Below, piece after piece: positions 54,671-61,435 of a stretch of DNA of 64,000 bases; positions within the stretch are counted from its first letter, which is position 1; each line of letters starts with the position of its first letter. Under the pieces are notes generated by a model. That model made no database searches, was not told where the DNA came from, and saw only the letters and a list, made by a program, of their open reading frames with translations. Origin of the DNA: Bacteroides sp. (GTDB taxonomy: Bacteria > Bacteroidota > Bacteroidia > Bacteroidales > Muribaculaceae). Made by a program: the position numbers and the translations under genes. Where the stretch lies: positions 1 through 64,000 of the forward strand of contig JAAVDA010000028.1 of the NCBI GenBank assembly GCA_014802045.1, read 5' to 3'.

Positions 54671-55456
54671 TTATTCGGGGGTAGGGAGCACTTTTGTGAG
54701 AAGAGTCTGTACGGCTGCAGCAGGGGTTGGTGTGTTCCGAAGGCATTTTATGAACATCGAGCCTATAATAGCTCCCGACGAATATCGCCATGCCTGACGC
54801 AGGGTCTCGGGATTGGATATGCCGAATCCTATGAGCCGCTTATTGCGCAGGTTGAGGCTGTCGATACGGCGGAAGTAGTCTGTCTGGGCGGTATCAAACC
54901 GGTCGCGTGTGCCGGTGGTGGATGCTGCCGATACCATGTAGATGAATCCGGAGCAGTTGTCATCTATCAGCCGGATGCGTTCGTCGGAGGTCTCGGGAGT
55001 GATGAGCATGATTACCGGGATGCCATACTTCTCACACAGCGGCTTGTAGTCGCGCATATATTCATCGAAAGGGAGGTCGGGAATGATAAGCGCGTCTATG
55101 CCAACTCGGCTGCAACGCTCAAAGAGCCTGTAGATGCCATACTGATACATGGGATTGAGATAGCCCATGAGCACCATAGGTATATCAGGACAACTCCGCC
55201 GTGCGTCTTCCACCTGCGCAAGCAGCCGTTCGAGAGTCATGCCGTTGGCCAGTGCGGCCGACGAACTTTCCTGAATCACCGTGCCGTCGGCCATAGGGTC
55301 GGAAAAAGGCACTCCCACCTCTATCATATCGACTCCTCCGGCATCAAGAGCACGGATAATCTCGCCGGTTGATTCAAGAGCGGGGAATCCGGCGGTGAAA
55401 TAGACCGATAGCAGCCGGTCCGGTTTTCTTTCAAAAAGCGATTGAATTCTATTCAT
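54671..55456 (-). CDS. trpA: Tryptophan synthase alpha chain
   Basis: 261 residues from ATG 55456 (MNRIQSLF); the longer frame adds nine residues not seen in the family. TIM-barrel enzyme that cleaves indole-3-glycerol phosphate to indole and glyceraldehyde 3-phosphate. The catalytic acids are Glu46 and Asp57 in IEVGVPFSDPMADG. It partners with TrpB, encoded at the other end of the same operon. It overlaps trpF by eight bases. It is last in the operon; no convincing terminator is visible downstream. Confidence 0.96.
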   Translation of the reverse strand: MNRIQSLFERKPDRLLSVYFTAGFPALESTGEIIRALDAGGVDMIEVGVPFSDPMADGTVIQESSSAALANGMTLERLLAQVEDARRSCPDIPMVLMGYLNPMYQYGIYRLFERCSRVGIDALIIPDLPFDEYMRDYKPLCEKYGIPVIMLITPETSDERIRLIDDNCSGFIYMVSAASTTGTRDRFDTAQTDYFRRIDSLNLRNKRLIGFGISNPETLRQAWRYSSGAIIGSMFIKCLRNTPTPAAAVQTLLTKVLPTPE

Positions 55457-56099
55457 TTTCTTCAGTTTTACCAAGTGATACAATAAATGACCGCAGGATA
55501 TCCGGATTCTTCAGACCCGGCGACTCCTCAAAACGGCTGTTGAGATCCACTCCGGCCATGCCGGGATATGCAGTGGCTGCTACCAGAGAGGCATCATCGG
55601 GTCCAATCCCTCCGCCGAGCAGATAGGGCACAGACAGAGGATAACCGCGCAACACAGACCAGTCAAACTTACACCCCGATCCGCCTCGATGTGGCGAACT
55701 CGAATCAAGCACGAACATGCTCACCACACCTTCATAACGCCGGTAGGCTTCCCAGTCTATATGGGGTGTCACGGCTATCGCCTTCATCACCTCATAGCCT
55801 CGCCGCGACAATTCGCGACAATCGCCGGGAGTCTCATCGCCGTGGAGCTGCACTATGCCGATACCATACTCACGGCACGTCTTGTCTATATAGTCGGCAG
55901 ACCGATTGACAAACACTCCCACAGGCCTCACTCCGTTTGCAAGGTTTCTCACCACCTCCGGGGCAACTCCCGCCGCACACCGTGGAGACCCATCGTGAAA
56001 AATGAATCCCATGAGCGACGGACCGAGAGACTCTACAGCCCGGATATTGGCCGGCTCTCTCATGCCACACACCTTTATCATCATCTTTTCTCTGCTCAT
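55449..56099 (-). CDS. trpF: Phosphoribosylanthranilate isomerase
   Basis: 216 residues, TIM barrel. The general base Cys is in IKVCGM near the N-terminus and the acid Asp in AGVDLNSRFE near the C-terminus. It converts phosphoribosylanthranilate to the carboxyphenylamino-deoxyribulose phosphate. It is a separate gene here, not fused to trpC as in E. coli. The start overlaps trpC by four bases; a start at the downstream MMIKV is also possible. Confidence 0.95.
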   Translation of the reverse strand: MSREKMMIKVCGMREPANIRAVESLGPSLMGFIFHDGSPRCAAGVAPEVVRNLANGVRPVGVFVNRSADYIDKTCREYGIGIVQLHGDETPGDCRELSRRGYEVMKAIAVTPHIDWEAYRRYEGVVSMFVLDSSSPHRGGSGCKFDWSVLRGYPLSVPYLLGGGIGPDDASLVAATAYPGMAGVDLNSRFEESPGLKNPDILRSFIVSLGKTEENE

Positions 56100-56875
56100 C
56101 GTGCCAGAAATTTCCTTAATGTCTCAGCGGGGTCGGGAGTTTTCATAAAGGTCTCGCCTATCAGGAAGCCGCGGTAGCCCCGGCTGCGGAGCGAGCGAAT
56201 CTCAGCTATCGATGAAAGGCCGCTTTCGGCCACTTTCACCGCCCTCTCCGGCAATAGAGCCGCAATATCGGCCGCCATGCCGATATCTGTGGTGAAGGTG
56301 TTGAGATCGCGGTTGTTCACTCCTATCATATCTGCTTCATCTATTATCTTCGGCAATTCGTCGGCTCCATGAATCTCAAGCAGCACCTCCATATCAAGCC
56401 TATGGGCAAGAGAGGCAAAGCGCTCAATCTCCTCACGGGTGAGCACTGAGGCTATCAGCAATACCGCGTTGGCTCCCAGAAATGCGGCCTCTCTTATCTG
56501 GCACTCGTCTACGATGAATTCCTTGCGCAGCAACGGCAGACGTGATTCTCTCCGCGCCACGGCAAAATCGGTGGCCGACCCACCGAAGAAGGGAGTATCG
56601 GTAAGCACAGAACATGCCGCGGCACCCGCAGCCTCATATCCCGGAACAATCTCAGCCACATCGGCCATCGGATGAATGTCGCCCTTTGACGGCGACCGAC
56701 GCTTGAATTCAGCTATTATACCTGTGGTGTCGGCCATCAGCACACGGCTCATGGAGAGCTTGCCGGGAGCGGTGGTAGATTCCACGCTATCGAATGGAGC
56801 ATAGTAGCCGGCTGCCTTCAGGGCACTGACCTCGGCACGCTTGCGCGACACTATTTCTGAAAGAATCGTAGCCAT
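56096..56875 (-). CDS. trpC: Indole-3-glycerol phosphate synthase
   Basis: 259 residues, TIM barrel. Family motifs are IAEFKRRSPSKGDI (about 54-67), PLLRKEFIVDECQI and IGVNNRDLNTF, with catalytic Lys and Glu residues in these segments. It closes the indole ring in the fourth step of the pathway. It lies three bases after trpD and overlaps trpF. Confidence 0.96.
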   Translation of the reverse strand: MATILSEIVSRKRAEVSALKAAGYYAPFDSVESTTAPGKLSMSRVLMADTTGIIAEFKRRSPSKGDIHPMADVAEIVPGYEAAGAAACSVLTDTPFFGGSATDFAVARRESRLPLLRKEFIVDECQIREAAFLGANAVLLIASVLTREEIERFASLAHRLDMEVLLEIHGADELPKIIDEADMIGVNNRDLNTFTTDIGMAADIAALLPERAVKVAESGLSSIAEIRSLRSRGYRGFLIGETFMKTPDPAETLRKFLAR

Positions 56876-56878
56876 AGC

Positions 56879-57874
56879 TCAACTGTTGATTTCTACGAAA
56901 CGACGGAAACATCTCTCGGCCGCTCCAGATGAAAGCGACTCTTCGGCAAGCGCCACCGCTTCACCGACAGAGAGCTCTGGCTCAAGAGTGCGGAGAGCAA
57001 AGGCAGAGTTGACCACCACACAGTCGCGCTGCGGAAGGGTGCTGCGGTTGGCTAGCACACTGTCGAATATAGCCGATGCCTCTTCTGGAGTGTCGCCACC
57101 ATATAGACTCTCCTGTGTGACGACCGGAAATCCGATGTCACCGGGATTAAGAAGATGCTCTCCGCAGGTGTCGGACACCATGAAGGGCGATGTGAGTGAA
57201 ATCTCGTCGTAGCCATCGAGCGAATGGACTATCGTGCAGTTGATATGCTCGCGCTGTGCGATGTATTTATACATCCTCAGCATTTTCAGGCTATAGACTC
57301 CGAGCATCTGATACTCGGGACGCACCGGATTGACCAGCGGACCGAGCATATTGAAAAATGTGCGCACTCCGAGAGCCTTGCGCACCGGACCCACACTCTT
57401 GAGAGCCGGACTGAAAAAGGGAGCGTGGAGATAGCACACCCCGCTCTCTTCAAGCGAACGGTGAAGGATGTCGGAGTCTGAGGTAAACTTCACGCCATGA
57501 GCTTCAAGCACATTGGAGGCCCCCGACACAGAAGTTGCGCCGTAGTTGCCATGTTTTATAACCTTGCGTCCGGCACCTGCCACCACGAAACATGAGGCGG
57601 TAGAGATATTGAAGGTGTTTTTCCCGTCGCCACCCGTGCCCACTATATCGATAGCCTTCACGCCACCGAAATCTACAGCCACCCGTCTCTCAAGAATAGC
57701 GTCTTGAAATCCAGTGAGCTCGTCGAGAGTGATGCTCCTCATGAGATAGATAGTCATGAAAGCGGCAAGCTGCGCGTCGTTGAAACGCCCGTCGGCTATG
57801 GCGAGCATAATTTGGCGCGCCTCGTCATGGGTGAGAGTCTTATGCTCGGAGAGTTTTACGAGTATGTTTTTCAT
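56879..57874 (-). CDS. trpD: Anthranilate phosphoribosyltransferase
   Basis: 331 residues. The nucleoside-phosphorylase-like N-terminal helices are followed by the PRPP-binding IDIVGTGGDGKNTFNIST (about 79-96) and KHGNYGATSVSGASNVLEAHG. It joins anthranilate to PRPP. It is not fused with trpG, which overlaps its start by four bases. Length is typical (about 330-340). Confidence 0.96.
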   Translation of the reverse strand: MKNILVKLSEHKTLTHDEARQIMLAIADGRFNDAQLAAFMTIYLMRSITLDELTGFQDAILERRVAVDFGGVKAIDIVGTGGDGKNTFNISTASCFVVAGAGRKVIKHGNYGATSVSGASNVLEAHGVKFTSDSDILHRSLEESGVCYLHAPFFSPALKSVGPVRKALGVRTFFNMLGPLVNPVRPEYQMLGVYSLKMLRMYKYIAQREHINCTIVHSLDGYDEISLTSPFMVSDTCGEHLLNPGDIGFPVVTQESLYGGDTPEEASAIFDSVLANRSTLPQRDCVVVNSAFALRTLEPELSVGEAVALAEESLSSGAAERCFRRFVEINS

Positions 57875-58449
57875 CTTTTAGAGCTTGTTGTGTTAATCCA
57901 GTTGCTGATTATTGTCATACCGTCGGGAGTGAGGATAGATTCGGGATGAAACTGCACACCTCTCACATCGTACTCCTTATGGCGGAGTGCCATGATATTG
58001 CCGTCGTCGCTCATGGCCGTAATCTCCAGACACTCCGGAAAATCTTCACGGCTCACCACCCACGAATGATAGCGGCCCACATCAATGCGGTCCGGAAGAC
58101 CTTCGAAAAGATAGTCGGGGGTGGTGATGGAGATGGTAGACCGGATGCCATGGTACACCCGGCTGAGGTTTTCAAGCTTAGCGCCGAAGCATTCACCTAT
58201 GGCCTGCTCGCCCAGACAGACTCCGAGAATCGGCTTGACCGGAGCATAGCGGCGCAAGAGGTCAGGAAGAATACCGGCTTCGGAGGGAATGCCGGGTCCC
58301 GGGGATATTATAATCTTGTCATAGGCATCCACCTCATCGAGAGTGATGCAGTCGTTGCGCCGCACATCGGGCTCTATGCCGAGTTGTCTCACCGCATGGA
58401 CAATGTTGTATGTGAACGAATCGTAGTTGTCGAAAATAAGAAGTTTCAT
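57871..58449 (-). CDS. trpG: Anthranilate synthase component II (glutamine amidotransferase)
   Basis: 192 residues from ATG 58449; the longer open frame runs into trpE and is not used. Class I amidotransferase with catalytic Cys78 in GVCLGEQAIG and His168/Glu170 in GVQFHPESILT. The usual His or Gln after GVCLG is Glu here, a modest variation. It supplies ammonia to TrpE. It lies 34 bases after trpE and overlaps trpD. Confidence 0.94.
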   Translation of the reverse strand: MKLLIFDNYDSFTYNIVHAVRQLGIEPDVRRNDCITLDEVDAYDKIIISPGPGIPSEAGILPDLLRRYAPVKPILGVCLGEQAIGECFGAKLENLSRVYHGIRSTISITTPDYLFEGLPDRIDVGRYHSWVVSREDFPECLEITAMSDDGNIMALRHKEYDVRGVQFHPESILTPDGMTIISNWINTTSSKR

Positions 58450-58483
58450 AATGCCATGTTTGAAAAAACAGTTGGGAAAACGG

Positions 58484-59887
58484 TCAGTGCCCGAAGTTTT
58501 CGGCCAGGCGCACAGCATTGACCAGCGCGCCGAGTTTGTTGTTGGTTTCCTGGAGCTCGGTGGCGGGGTCGCTTGCAGCCACAATGCCGGCACCGGCCTG
58601 AGAATAGAGGGTGTTGTCGCGGCTAAGGAAACTGCGGATTGTGATGGCCTGATTGAGATTGCCCGAGAAGCCGATAAATCCGATGCAGCCACCGTAGATC
58701 ATGCGGTTGTGGGGCTCTATCTCATCAATAAGCTGCATGGCCCTCACTTTGGGCGCACCGCTGAGGGTGCCCGCAGGGAATGTGCCTGCATAGAGCTTGA
58801 ACACATCGGCCCCCTCGGGCAAGTCTGCCCTGACACGCGACACCATGTGAATCACGTGGGAGTAGTACTGTATCTGGCGCAGAAACTCGATGCTGACGCG
58901 CCCACCGCGACTGAGGTCATTGCGGGCGAGGTCTACAAGCATGATATGCTCGGCATTCTCTTTCTCGTCGCGGAGCAACGCATCGGCAAGCTCACGGTCG
59001 CGCTCATCATTGCCGGTGCGACGGAAGGTGCCGGCTATAGGGTCAATATAGGCGTGGCGACCATCGACCTTGAGATGAGTTTCGGGAGAGGAGCCAAACA
59101 CCCTGAAATCGCCAAAGTCAAAATAAAACAGATAGGGAGAAGGGTTGACAGACCTCAGGGCACGATAGACATTGAATTCATCGCCCTCAAACGGCTGCGA
59201 GAAGCGTCGGGAGAGCACAATCTGAAACACATCGCCCCTCATGGCATGGCCGATGCCTCGTCTCACCATGTCCATATACTCATTGTCGGTGATTGAGGAT
59301 GATGCGGGAGCTGTGGCATGGAAGGGATATTGAGCTATGTTGTCGTTGCGGAGCACACTCACAATCTGACCGATCGAATCGGGACGACCCGGCTCGATGT
59401 GCTGATAGATGGTCATGATATTCCTATAGTGGTTTACCTTTATGATATATCTGAAGAGGATATATTTCATATCGGGAATACCGTTGAAGCAGCTGTCTGG
59501 GCGGCTCACGCTCACCTTGTCGAAATATCTCACCGCATCGTAAGCTGTATAACCGAAGAATCCGTTGGCATCGGGCGCCACATCTCCGGCGAGACTGAAC
59601 GAGTCGATGTAGCTCTTCAGTTCTCCCACCACACTCACCTCAGGAGTGATGGGTTTTTCATAGCCTGTGCCGTCGGGGTAGGTGCATTTAACTGTGTTGC
59701 CGGCCACCGTGAATTCAGCCAGAGGGTCGATGCCTATGTAGCTGAGCGAATTTTGCGAAGTGTGGTAGTCGGAGCTTTCGAGCAGAGCGCTCTCCGGAAA
59801 GAGGTCGCGAATCTTGAGATAGATGCCCACCGGAGTTTCAAGATCGGCGGGAAGCTCGAACGATTTTACTGTGATTTCGAATTTCAT
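58484..59887 (-). CDS. trpE: Anthranilate synthase component I
   Basis: 467 residues from ATG 59887 (MKFEITVKSF). An in-frame ATG at 59911 would overlap trpB and is less likely. The chorismate-binding domain includes FGSSPETHLK, PIAGTFRRTGNDERD, GTFPAGTLSGAPKVRAMQLI and the C-terminal AGAGIVAASDPATE. The N-terminal LLES (35-38) is the tryptophan feedback-binding motif known from enterobacterial TrpE, so the enzyme is likely inhibited by Trp in addition to the attenuation proposed upstream of trpB. Confidence 0.94.
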   Translation of the reverse strand: MKFEITVKSFELPADLETPVGIYLKIRDLFPESALLESSDYHTSQNSLSYIGIDPLAEFTVAGNTVKCTYPDGTGYEKPITPEVSVVGELKSYIDSFSLAGDVAPDANGFFGYTAYDAVRYFDKVSVSRPDSCFNGIPDMKYILFRYIIKVNHYRNIMTIYQHIEPGRPDSIGQIVSVLRNDNIAQYPFHATAPASSSITDNEYMDMVRRGIGHAMRGDVFQIVLSRRFSQPFEGDEFNVYRALRSVNPSPYLFYFDFGDFRVFGSSPETHLKVDGRHAYIDPIAGTFRRTGNDERDRELADALLRDEKENAEHIMLVDLARNDLSRGGRVSIEFLRQIQYYSHVIHMVSRVRADLPEGADVFKLYAGTFPAGTLSGAPKVRAMQLIDEIEPHNRMIYGGCIGFIGFSGNLNQAITIRSFLSRDNTLYSQAGAGIVAASDPATELQETNNKLGALVNAVRLAENFGH

Positions 59888-59900
59888 ATATGGTGAGTGG

Positions 59901-61091
59901 TTACTTTGCATATTTCATGTATGTGTGCATGTCCTTGTCTCCGCGTCCGGAGAGGTTGACCACCACGGTTGCGTCGGGAGCGAACTGAATCTTGTCGAGC
60001 ACCGCAAGCGCGTGGGCCGATTCGAGAGCCGGGATGATGCCTTCAGTGCGTGTGAGGCGGAAAGCAGCCTCCAGAGCCTCATCATCATTCACGGCCACTG
60101 TGCGTGTGCGTCCAGTTTTGGCCAGATGAGCGTGGAGAGGCCCGACACCGGGATAGTCGAGTCCGGCAGATATGGAATAGGGCTCTGTGATCTGTCCGTC
60201 GGGAGTCTGCATCACCAGTGTCCGCGCACCGTGGATTATGCCTTCCGTGCCGGCCATTATGCTTGCGGCAGTCATTCCGGAGTCTACTCCCAGGCCTCCG
60301 GCCTCGGCCGCAATGAGGCTTACCTTGTCATTGTCGATAAAATGATAGAATGCTCCGGCGGCATTGCTGCCACCGCCAATGCAGGCAATCACTGCATCGG
60401 GATAGTCGCGGCCGGTAAGCTCCGAGAGTTGTTTTTTGATTTCGCTGCTTATCACAGACTGGAAATAGGCCACCATCTCCGGATAAGGATGAGGGCCAAC
60501 CGTGCTGCCGATCACATAGAAACTTTCGGGGTGGCAACACCAGTGGCGGATGGCTTCGTTGGTGGCGTCTTTGAGAGTCTTGTTGCCGCTCTCCACCGGC
60601 ACAACCTTGGCTCCGAGCATCTTCATGCGCTGCACATTCGGCTGCTGGCGCTCCACGTCGAGCGCACCTTGATAGACCACACATTCCAGCCCCATGAGAG
60701 CGCACACTGTGGCCACGGCCACACCATGCTGACCGGCTCCGGTCTCGGCTATGATGCTCCTCTTGCCCATGCGGCAGGCCAGAAGCACGGAGCCGATGGC
60801 ATTGTTTATCTTATGTGCTCCGGTGTGGTTGAGGTCTTCACGCTTAAGATAGATATTGGTGTTGTAGTGGCTGCTGAGTCTGTCGGCTCTATAGAGCGGG
60901 GTGGGGCGACCCACGTAGTCACGGAGCAATCTATGGTATTCGGCCATAAACTCATCGTCGGACGCATAGCGATAGAAGGCTTCTTTGAGCTTCTCTACAT
61001 TTGAGTGAAGTATCTCCGGGATATATGCTCCGCCGTAGCGTCCGTAAAATCCGCTGCTGTCTACCGGGAGTATGTGGGTGAACTCTTTCAT
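59901..61091 (-). CDS. trpB: Tryptophan synthase beta chain
   Basis: 396 residues, PLP enzyme condensing indole with serine. PLP-binding Lys94 is in HTGAHKINNAIGS, and the phosphate loop is CIGGGSNAAGAFYHF. It is the ordinary TrpB1 type that works with TrpA. It is the first structural gene of trpBEGDCFA, the order usual in Bacteroidetes. It is preceded by a 39-base spacer after the U8 terminator, a leader peptide and a consensus promoter, so its expression should fall when charged tRNA-Trp is plentiful. Confidence 0.96.
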   Translation of the reverse strand: MKEFTHILPVDSSGFYGRYGGAYIPEILHSNVEKLKEAFYRYASDDEFMAEYHRLLRDYVGRPTPLYRADRLSSHYNTNIYLKREDLNHTGAHKINNAIGSVLLACRMGKRSIIAETGAGQHGVAVATVCALMGLECVVYQGALDVERQQPNVQRMKMLGAKVVPVESGNKTLKDATNEAIRHWCCHPESFYVIGSTVGPHPYPEMVAYFQSVISSEIKKQLSELTGRDYPDAVIACIGGGSNAAGAFYHFIDNDKVSLIAAEAGGLGVDSGMTAASIMAGTEGIIHGARTLVMQTPDGQITEPYSISAGLDYPGVGPLHAHLAKTGRTRTVAVNDDEALEAAFRLTRTEGIIPALESAHALAVLDKIQFAPDATVVVNLSGRGDKDMHTYMKYAK

Positions 61092-61129
61092 TGTCTCTTC
61101 GGGTTGATTAGAGTTGAAACTATAGTTAC

Positions 61130-61163
61130 AAAAAAAACGGCCACGATTATGAGTCGATGGCCG
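61130..61163 (-). terminator. trp attenuator terminator
   Basis: On the minus strand CGGCCA, one bulged T, CGA, a loop, then TCG and TGGCCG form a stem (plus coordinates 61138-61163) followed directly by eight T (61130-61137). It stands between the leader peptide and trpB. Its 5' arm (GCCATCGA, plus 61154-61161) can instead pair with TCGATGGC inside the leader frame (61208-61215). Confidence 0.85.
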
Positions 61164-61237
61164 GTTTCAGAAATAATATCCTTATATGATTAACTGCACG
61201 AAAATATGCCATCGATATGCCTACCGATGCGCCACCA
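61154..61237 (-). promoter_or_regulatory. Candidate trp antiterminator pairing and Trp stall site
   Basis: The tandem Trp codons are at 61232-61237. Just after them CATCG (61225-61229) can pair with CGATG (within 61209-61213), a weak 1:2 hairpin. The second segment, TCGATGGC (61208-61215), is fully complementary over eight bases to GCCATCGA (61154-61161), the 5' arm of the terminator. A ribosome stalled on the Trp codons would cover segment 1, free segment 2 and prevent the terminator. Confidence 0.7.
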
Positions 61238-61270
61238 ATATGAGTATGCGTTAAATCCGTGAGTCAGCAT
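61190..61270 (-). CDS. trpL: trp operon leader peptide
   Basis: A 26-codon frame, ATG at 61268-61270 and TAA at 61190-61192, too short for usual gene calling. It begins MLTHGFNAYSYWWRIG, with Trp12-Trp13 in tandem, and ends in SCS. AAAGGAAAGC ahead of the ATG is a reasonable ribosome site. It lies between a consensus promoter and a U8 terminator just ahead of trpB. This is the arrangement of ribosome-mediated attenuators. Two adjacent Trp codons in 26 by chance is unlikely, and the location makes the call strong, though it remains untested. Confidence 0.82.
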   Translation of the reverse strand: MLTHGFNAYSYWWRIGRHIDGIFSCS

Positions 61271-61325
61271 GTTGCTTTCCTTTTATCTTTTAAGTGTGTG
61301 TGGAACGATATATTCGTTAACGCTG

Positions 61326-61357
61326 CAAATTTATATAATGTTTCTATTTCCAACAAA
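61326..61357 (-). promoter_or_regulatory. trp operon promoter
   Basis: Minus-strand TTTG (plus 61354-61357), 20 bases, then TAAATTTG (plus 61326-61333), one of the best consensus matches in the window. Transcription should begin near 61320, about 50 bases before the leader ATG. No Trp-repressor-like palindrome overlaps it. Confidence 0.75.
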
Positions 61358-61384
61358 TTTTTTCCGCGCAAAAAATAAATGTGC

Positions 61385-61392
61385 TACCTTTG
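61385..61392 (+). promoter_or_regulatory. -7 box for the GH84 gene
   Basis: TACCTTTG (61385-61392) fits TAnnTTTG, with TTTC in the -33 position. It is divergent from the trp promoter about 30 bases away. ATG 61436 lies 43 bases downstream. Confidence 0.55.
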
Positions 61393-61435
61393 TGTAGCCT
61401 TATTATTTATGCAAACGAAATTTTATATCATAGCT

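Follow-up and report, generated by a model that had tools for sequence, protein, structure and literature searches.

Is the short stretch upstream of trpB in a genome of the Muribaculaceae a complete ribosome-mediated transcription attenuator, and how does it relate to the tryptophan leaders already on record? The region lies at 61130..61363 on the minus strand of the DNA analysed here (64,000 nt, hereafter the window), and a preliminary description, made from the letters alone, had read into it the logic of the enterobacterial trp attenuator, in which a stalled ribosome covers segment 1, segment 2 pairs with segment 3 and the terminator fails. In textbook attenuation the antiterminator takes the 5′ arm of the terminator, which emerges first.

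The available part of a 2010 study (PMC2965389) describes amino-acid leader peptides as known only from Proteobacteria and Actinobacteria, to which it adds Firmicutes. Rfam names its family RF01692, Bacteroid-trp, a “Bacteroidete tryptophan peptide leader RNA”, and Weinberg et al. 2010 (PMC2864571) list it in their Table 1. In the same phylum, clues to leader-peptide attenuation before amino-acid operons come from Flavobacterium psychrophilum (PMC9723704); the accessible main text is without the words trp and tryptophan, and no antiterminator register is seen in that part. Likewise, the accessible main text of PMC7366714 describes frames of B. thetaiotaomicron as reminiscent of leader peptides, without mention of trp or tryptophan.

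Results

The leader of the trpBEGDCFA operon

The elements of the locus, all on the minus strand and ordered in the direction of reading, are the following.

61326..61357, minus strand: putative promoter of the Bacteroides type, with -33 box TTTG (61357-61354), 20 nt, and -7 box TAAATTTG (61333-61326), by direct reading
61276..61284, minus strand: A/G-rich AAAAGGAAA, possible ribosome site, by direct reading
61190..61270, minus strand: leader peptide frame of 26 codons plus stop, MLTHGFNAYSYWWRIGRHIDGIFSCS, by direct reading and from the tandem-Trp frame in relatives
61232..61237, minus strand: tandem Trp codons 12 and 13 (UGGUGG), the putative sensor, by reading and from 60 of 68 family loci
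61222..61229, minus strand: segment 1, CAUCGGUA, partner of 61217-61210, from folding and covariation in helix 1:2
61208..61217, minus strand: segment 2, UAUCGAUGGC, pairing through 61217-61210 with segment 1 and through 61215-61208 with segment 3 (antiterminator), from the permutation test and covariation
61138..61163, minus strand: terminator hairpin CGGCCAUCGACUCAUAAUCGUGGCCG (-11.8 kcal/mol; covariation), with segment 3 at 61161-61154 and segment 4 as its 3′ arm
61130..61137, minus strand: U8 tract, completing the intrinsic terminator, by direct reading
59901..61091, minus strand: trpB, first gene of the putatively controlled operon (TIGR00263, 574.5 bits against a cut-off of 392.45)
54671..59911, minus strand: trpE, trpG, trpD, trpC, trpF and trpA, in this order (NCBIfam)

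The observation at 61130..61363 is confirmed. The 26-codon frame with tandem Trp codons, as first described, is present at 61270-61190 with the codons at 61237-61232; the eight bases at 61208-61215 said to pair with the 5′ arm of the hairpin read back as a perfect 8-bp helix 2:3 between UCGAUGGC (61215-61208) and GCCAUCGA (61161-61154); and eight U (61137-61130) come directly after the hairpin (61163-61138), ahead of trpB at 61091. To these we add segment 1 (61229-61222), unnamed in the preliminary description, which forms with UAUCGAUG (61217-61210) the 8-bp helix 1:2, located 3′ of the Trp codons. The window displays the sequence marks of a trpL-type leader, namely regulatory Trp codons located at segment 1 or immediately ahead of it, an intrinsic terminator between leader and first gene (61163-61130) and the mutually exclusive helices 1:2, 2:3 and 3:4.

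Two elements needed qualification. The announced consensus promoter is there, yet its type is that of Bacteroides (TTTG/TAAATTTG, by the consensus of that type), and a sigma-70 scan returned no promoter. Within the 110 nt that precede the leader ATG, 54 of 57 leaders of the Muribaculaceae type carry the motif TAnnTTTG, as do 64 of the 69 others, where shuffling predicts 4.7 and 3.5. The -7 box stands 55 nt from the leader ATG in the window (61326-61270), against a median of 24 nt among Muribaculaceae-type leaders. As for the ribosome site, the A/G-rich AAAAGGAAA is present at 61284-61276, but its role is uncertain, since Bacteroidetes rely little on Shine-Dalgarno sequences.

Five short frames with tandem UGG occur in the 64 kb, and the trpB leader is the one with a terminator within 140 nt downstream. 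The same combination arose twice in total in 40 dinucleotide shuffles of the window (0.05 per shuffle), and the fold of the leader, at z -2.57, was equalled by 2 of 200 shuffles. The operon reads trpBEGDCFA, in which the trpG subfamily, trpD, trpC and trpA matches exceed their NCBIfam curated cut-offs, and trpE and trpF are the best-named families with scores under theirs. The divergent plus-strand gene upstream has a sole match, to a beta-N-acetylglucosaminidase, and its 622.9 bits stay under the cut-off of 1000.

Conservation of the leader before trpB

Relatives were gathered via TrpB, in sets of 110 and then 85 loci (195), and the weak RF01692 matches L111-L118 were excluded from this trpB set. 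A short frame with tandem Trp stands upstream at 147 of the 195 loci; it is missing at 43, and the remaining five, with less than 250 nt upstream of trpB and no frame seen there, were too short. Most of the negative loci (36 of 43) belong to other families than that of the window, and in 33 of these 36 an open frame of 120 codons or more ends within 400 nt of trpB, by eye with a trpF-like end in many, which makes it probable that another gene stands first at these loci; the long frame is absent at three (L017, L018 and L089). Within the Muribaculaceae the frame is present at 60 of 68 trpB loci, absent at seven and too short to judge at one. One locus counted as negative, L173, has a leader visible by eye in a sequence with undetermined bases; another, L125 (G063), where the leader-like frame contains one Trp codon instead of two and a U-tract terminator is not obvious, is perhaps a decayed attenuator; at L164, L165, L178, L179 and L183 no leader was found upstream of trpB. 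Relatives without Trp codons or terminator had been named at the outset as what would speak against an attenuator, and the tandem-Trp frame at 147 of 195 loci, and 60 of 68 in the family, leaves the reading standing. In the alignments A1 and A3 described below the Trp codons are invariant by construction, since rows were preselected for tandem Trp, and the informative figure is that of 60 of 68 family loci.

Some loci deviate in ways worth recording. L166 and L169 (G067, G140) combine strong complementarity, by eye, between segment 2 and the 5′ arm with a hairpin lacking a U tract, and termination there may need another factor. L182, L183 and L184 (G136, G221, G218) belong to the family of the window and have a trpB that clusters with other families in the tree, so that the operon may have been transferred along with its attenuator. 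L033, L039 and L090, titled Lachnospiraceae, Clostridiales and Verrucomicrobia, have a trpB falling among Bacteroidales and are probably misnamed or misbinned metagenome contigs.

Segment 2 and the terminator 5′ arm

For pairing tests, loci were grouped by family membership and position in the trpB tree, a quick build with 51 of 172 inner branches starred and 63 open. Labels assigned by score were at odds with the tree for two loci on the Muribaculaceae side that were labelled B (L019 and L181) and for two on the other side that were labelled A (L184 and L090); by score, 13 of the 195 loci were ambiguous. The test rows comprised 58 of 71 Muribaculaceae-type and 70 of 73 other loci with a terminator, after removal of near-copies (at most 4 differences) and of rows with less than 15 nt testable; L038 and L041 are duplicates of Muribaculaceae loci. 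The terminator was picked automatically at each locus, which for L057 gave a wrong, distant hairpin. Leaders of at most 135 nt without N formed the alignment pool (30 of 58 Muribaculaceae-type, 64 of 70 other). Of the former, A1 holds 23, with L002, L005, L019, L023, L134, L181 and L185 left out as divergent, and A3 all 30; of the latter, A2 holds 37 and A4 all 64.

Among the 58 Muribaculaceae-type leaders, window included, segment 2 scored on average 21.28 against its own 5′ arm, 15.02 against the arms of others and 10.79 against shuffles; the observed total was reached by 0 of 10,000 partner permutations (relatedness ignored, as in all our covariation and permutation tests), and 51 of 58 leaders beat 95% of their own shuffles. 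The bases of segment 3 are shared between helices 2:3 and 3:4, and their changes are accompanied by changes in segments 2 and 4: the triplets run A-U-A (21) and G-C-G (8) in one column, U-A-U (32) and C-G-C (6) in the next, and U-A-U (24) and C-G-C (11) in another.

For helix 2:3, 90.8% of cells are paired in 23 rows and 89.1% in 30, with 14 and 26 two-sided changes against 4.3 and 9.8 in shuffles. Helices 1:2 and 3:4 together are 84.9% paired in 23 rows and 78.6% in 30, with 39 and 53 two-sided cells against 14.5 and 21.5. Slid helices had fewer paired cells and a lower covariation score than the true register. Counts of pairs and pair types for 1:2 and 3:4 exceeded shuffles in the 23-row alignment (reached by 0 and 2 of 500) and did not in the 30-row one (95 and 142 of 500); for 2:3 they exceeded them on neither 23 rows (80 and 52 of 500) nor 30 (319 and 236), and the case for 2:3 therefore rests on cells, covariation score, permutations and slides. 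The compensatory changes in 2:3 and 3:4 that had been suggested as a check were accordingly found, with covariation across relatives in 1:2 as well.

Folding with a masked ribosome

We next masked, at each ribosome position, an assumed footprint extending from the first P-site base by 15 nt to its 5′ side and 16 nt to its 3′ side, with RNA ends set per register, at the end of the loop for the 5′-arm type and at the end of the paired 3′-arm part for the loop/3′-arm type, a choice by which masked folding favours the antiterminator. For the window, with the RNA ending at 61146, the predicted probability of 2:3 is 0.08 in the free RNA, 0.98 with a ribosome stalled at either Trp codon and 0.00 with one at the stop codon; the E. 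coli trpL control (NC_000913.3) gave 0.09, 0.99 and 0.00. Averaged over the 58 Muribaculaceae-type leaders, the antiterminator probability is 0.32 free, 0.88 stalled and 0.15 at the stop, and it is at least 0.5 in 54 leaders when stalled, in 9 at the stop codon and in 21 when free; in L019, L171, L174 and L181 (4 of 58) it stays below 0.5 even when stalled.

With the whole terminator present at equilibrium, 3:4 wins in every ribosome state of the window (P34 at least 0.95), mean P34 in the 58-leader group is 0.89 even when stalled, and the antiterminator exceeds the terminator in 4 of 58 stalled leaders. The same model lets the terminator dominate in all states of the full E. coli leader too, which makes the equilibrium fold of a complete leader uninformative as a test of the switch; the choice must be kinetic, made during transcription.

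Two apparent antiterminator registers within the order

Pairing of segment 2 with the 5′ arm as a property of all families was rejected: it is absent in the 70 leaders of other families (own 8.35, cross 9.72; 9965 of 10,000 permutations as high, relatedness ignored), and we therefore examined a register defined in the present analysis, not by Rfam, in which segment 2 pairs with the loop and 3′ arm. The other families carry a conserved GUCGUGAG or GUCGCG about 20 nt past the Trp codons, complementary to the terminator loop plus 3′ arm. Scored in this register, the 70 leaders reach 17.00 against their own partner, 13.92 across leaders and 10.83 against shuffles, with 0 of 10,000 permutations as high, and 37 of 70 beat 95% of their own shuffles. 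The 58 Muribaculaceae-type leaders do not match it (own 11.81, cross 11.83; 5256 of 10,000 as high), and the leader of the window itself scores 7.5 for loop plus 3′ arm against 21.0 for the 5′ arm, and so departs from the wider Bacteroidales register.

The loop/3′-arm helix is 89.3% paired on 37 rows and 84.4% on 64, with 20 and 39 two-sided cells against 7.3 and 12.9 in shuffles; its pair and pair-type counts are not above shuffles (113 and 133 of 500 on 37 rows, 61 and 139 of 500 on 64). At one position whose partner rarely lies in the terminator stem (both helices in 6 of 70), G-C is found in 55 leaders, G-U in 6 and A-U in 5, with 4 unpaired. At its last two positions the helix lacks a pair in 31 and 32 of the 70 leaders, because it is shorter in Prevotella. 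In this group 1:2 is 86.4% and 3:4 99.2% paired (jointly 93.9%), with all five measures above shuffles. Masked folding, with the RNA taken to the end of the paired 3′-arm part, gives the 70 leaders a mean antiterminator probability of 0.84 when the ribosome is stalled, compared with 0.03 for free RNA and 0.01 with the ribosome at the stop codon, and 61 of 70 are at 0.5 or above when stalled; once the whole 3′ arm is out, it is 0.00 in all states.

Rfam and wider searches

RF01692 assigns membership at a covariance-model score of at least 49 bits. It had no match up to E 10 in the window and none in the genome of the window; membership by score was therefore rejected, and we built two models of our own, R1 from trpB-first leaders of other families only and R2 from Muribaculaceae-type leaders. 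Across 149 family genomes RF01692 matched none over its cut-off and 24 weakly (up to E 10), the best being a sub-cut-off match of 40 bits in G136, directly before the trpB of L182, which groups with other families. Among 20 loci it exceeded its cut-off in three (L052, L057 and L099), 3 of 16 outside and 0 of 4 within the Muribaculaceae type. Of these, L099 scores 18.5 for the loop/3′ arm against 0 for the 5′ arm, L052 ties at 13.5, and for L057 the hairpin was wrongly chosen. Low-ranking Rfam matches to sroB, rox2, sn2343 and two lncRNA families were rejected at E 1.7 or worse, the sroB alignment leaning on the terminator.

In a sample of 149 genomes from the order, R1 had matches in 105 at E ≤0.1, weak ones among which may be chance, and it had none in the genome of the window. 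We inspected 20 match sites (19 of R1, 1 of R2); 18 lie before trpE, and all 18 of these have a Trp-Trp frame and a terminator-like hairpin. In the 18 trpE-first leaders, a sample that is not neutral because the models themselves selected the sites, the loop/3′-arm score exceeds the 5′-arm score in 15, ties in 1 and is lower in 2. R2 matched 44 of 198 family genomes at E ≤0.01, and 35 of its 37 matches at E ≤1e-5 precede an identified trpB by no more than about 250 nt, the exceptions being G145:C220 and G169:C10. In the order sample R2 matched 16 of 149 genomes, the best two, both from the family, with E of about 1e-12 and the third with 1.4e-5. The genome of the window holds one clear copy by R2, at trpB, its leader being itself among the R2 training rows, and the next matches have E 0.58 and 0.76.

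Three further sites stood out. L227 (G042:C131:1900-3700) carries two tandem Trp-Trp leaders before trpE, each with its own terminator-like hairpin, which suggests a double attenuator, and G293:C32 likewise has two neighbouring R1 matches. At G050:C308:1632-1736 an R1 match (E 4.7e-5) precedes a distant TrpB-like gene by about 280 nt, and such leaders may therefore also control trpB2-type genes.

Discussion

We propose that the region 61363-61130 on the minus strand is, with high probability, a ribosome-mediated transcription attenuator of the trpBEGDCFA operon, a reading drawn from sequence comparison and modelling and strongly supported by conservation, by covariation in 1:2, 2:3 and 3:4 and by masked folding that behaves like that of E. 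coli; the enterobacterial logic proposed at the outset gains support from the same three lines. When tryptophan is ample, the ribosome would pass both Trp codons toward the stop codon, segment 2 would be masked or kept by segment 1, and the 3:4 terminator would form, so that transcription would stop at the U tract. When Trp-tRNA is scarce, the ribosome would halt at codons 12-13 and mask segment 1, upon which segment 2 would take the terminator 5′ arm on its emergence, the hairpin would fail and the polymerase would enter trpB. Promoter use, translation of the leader, stalling, termination and the response to tryptophan are in this scheme what we infer from the arrangement of the elements.

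The readings that compete with attenuation differ in what they would make of the same elements. If the terminator were constitutive or unrelated, and the upstream frame a product of chance or merely translated, the operon would escape tryptophan control; the terminator fold that full-length RNA takes in all ribosome states agrees with this, but tandem Trp codons, segments 1 and 2 and terminator either occur together, as at 60 of 68 family loci, or covary, 54 of 57 leaders have a Bacteroides-type -7 box shortly before them, and chance would bring frame and terminator together only 0.05 times per window, so that we regard such an arrangement as very improbable. Trans-acting tryptophan sensors control trp genes in other phyla, and a TRAP-like protein, a repressor or T-box-like tRNA binding could in principle make the leader frame secondary. 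Against such a sensor stand the genome of the window (75.7% complete), in which neither TRAP (PF02081) nor TrpR (PF01371) had a match; Rfam, in which no family, T-box included, came out better than E 2.1 at 61080-61400, the matches there being to unrelated families; and the covariation, which falls on segments that a ribosome would mask or free. Among 14 control genomes, that of Bacillus subtilis matched both PF02081 and PF01371, and that of E. coli matched PF01371. We consider this the least probable of the competing explanations.

Finally, the leader RNA or the released peptide might also act in trans, attenuation being then one role among others, and precedent exists in the trans action reported for the Sinorhizobium trp leader peptide in the available part of PMC7298713. 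In our leaders, however, the peptide outside the Trp codons is governed by the RNA pairing, with IG...RW encoding segments 1 and 2, and it varies widely with no pointer to a target; we give an additional role of this kind little chance.

The preliminary description had found the leader residues unlike those of E. coli. That is partly right, but Trp-Trp-Arg (WWR) and the nine bases UGGUGGCGC are shared with trpL (L204, NC_000913.3), as are the 1:2/2:3/3:4 logic and the switch in masked folding. The last Trp is followed by the codon CGC in 40 of 58 Muribaculaceae-type and 27 of 70 other leaders, and by an Arg codon of any kind in 45 of 58 and 48 of 70; judged from sequence, the likeness may reflect either shared descent or shared constraint. 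Differences are that segment 2 lies within the frame in the window, with the stop codon 15 nt past it, whereas the E. coli leader frame has ended before segment 2 is reached, and that the leader precedes trpB instead of trpE. The enterobacterial leader model (Rfam Trp_leader, presumably RF00513) had no covariance-model match up to E 10 in the window.

Bacteroid-trp is the closer comparison. The window shares with it the phylum, the position upstream of trp genes, the short frame with tandem Trp and the terminator that follows; its leader probably descends with the Bacteroidales leaders known by that name. This kind of attenuator is already catalogued as RF01692, and the window holds a form that the public model misses. 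The consensus of that model ends inside the terminator 5′ arm and draws no antiterminator. The difference lies in the register, segment 2 fitting the loop plus 3′ arm outside the Muribaculaceae and the 5′ arm in the group of the window, which suggests a reason why the model misses the leaders of this family.

Within one order, then, the antiterminator appears, from comparison of the leaders, to take opposite arms of the terminator. On balance we favour the view that Bacteroidales possess two wirings, a widespread one with the late-emerging loop plus 3′ arm (2:4), used by trpB-first and trpE-first leaders alike, and one with the 5′ arm (2:3), the register of E. coli, to which the Muribaculaceae switched; most simply, 2:4 would be the older and widely distributed wiring, and 2:3 would have arisen in the Muribaculaceae. 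To our knowledge, the 2:4 register occurs in no described ribosome-mediated attenuator, and a full-text literature search, partial in coverage, thinly targeted and with supplements outside its scope, returned no description of this register or of the register difference.

Muribaculaceae are common gut bacteria, and translation initiation in Bacteroidota is unusual. If the two wirings hold true, the same sensor codons would have been kept in this order as the RNA switch below them was rewired, and the leaders would represent a natural experiment on how tight the coupling between ribosome and polymerase must be, making such coupling testable in Bacteroidota.
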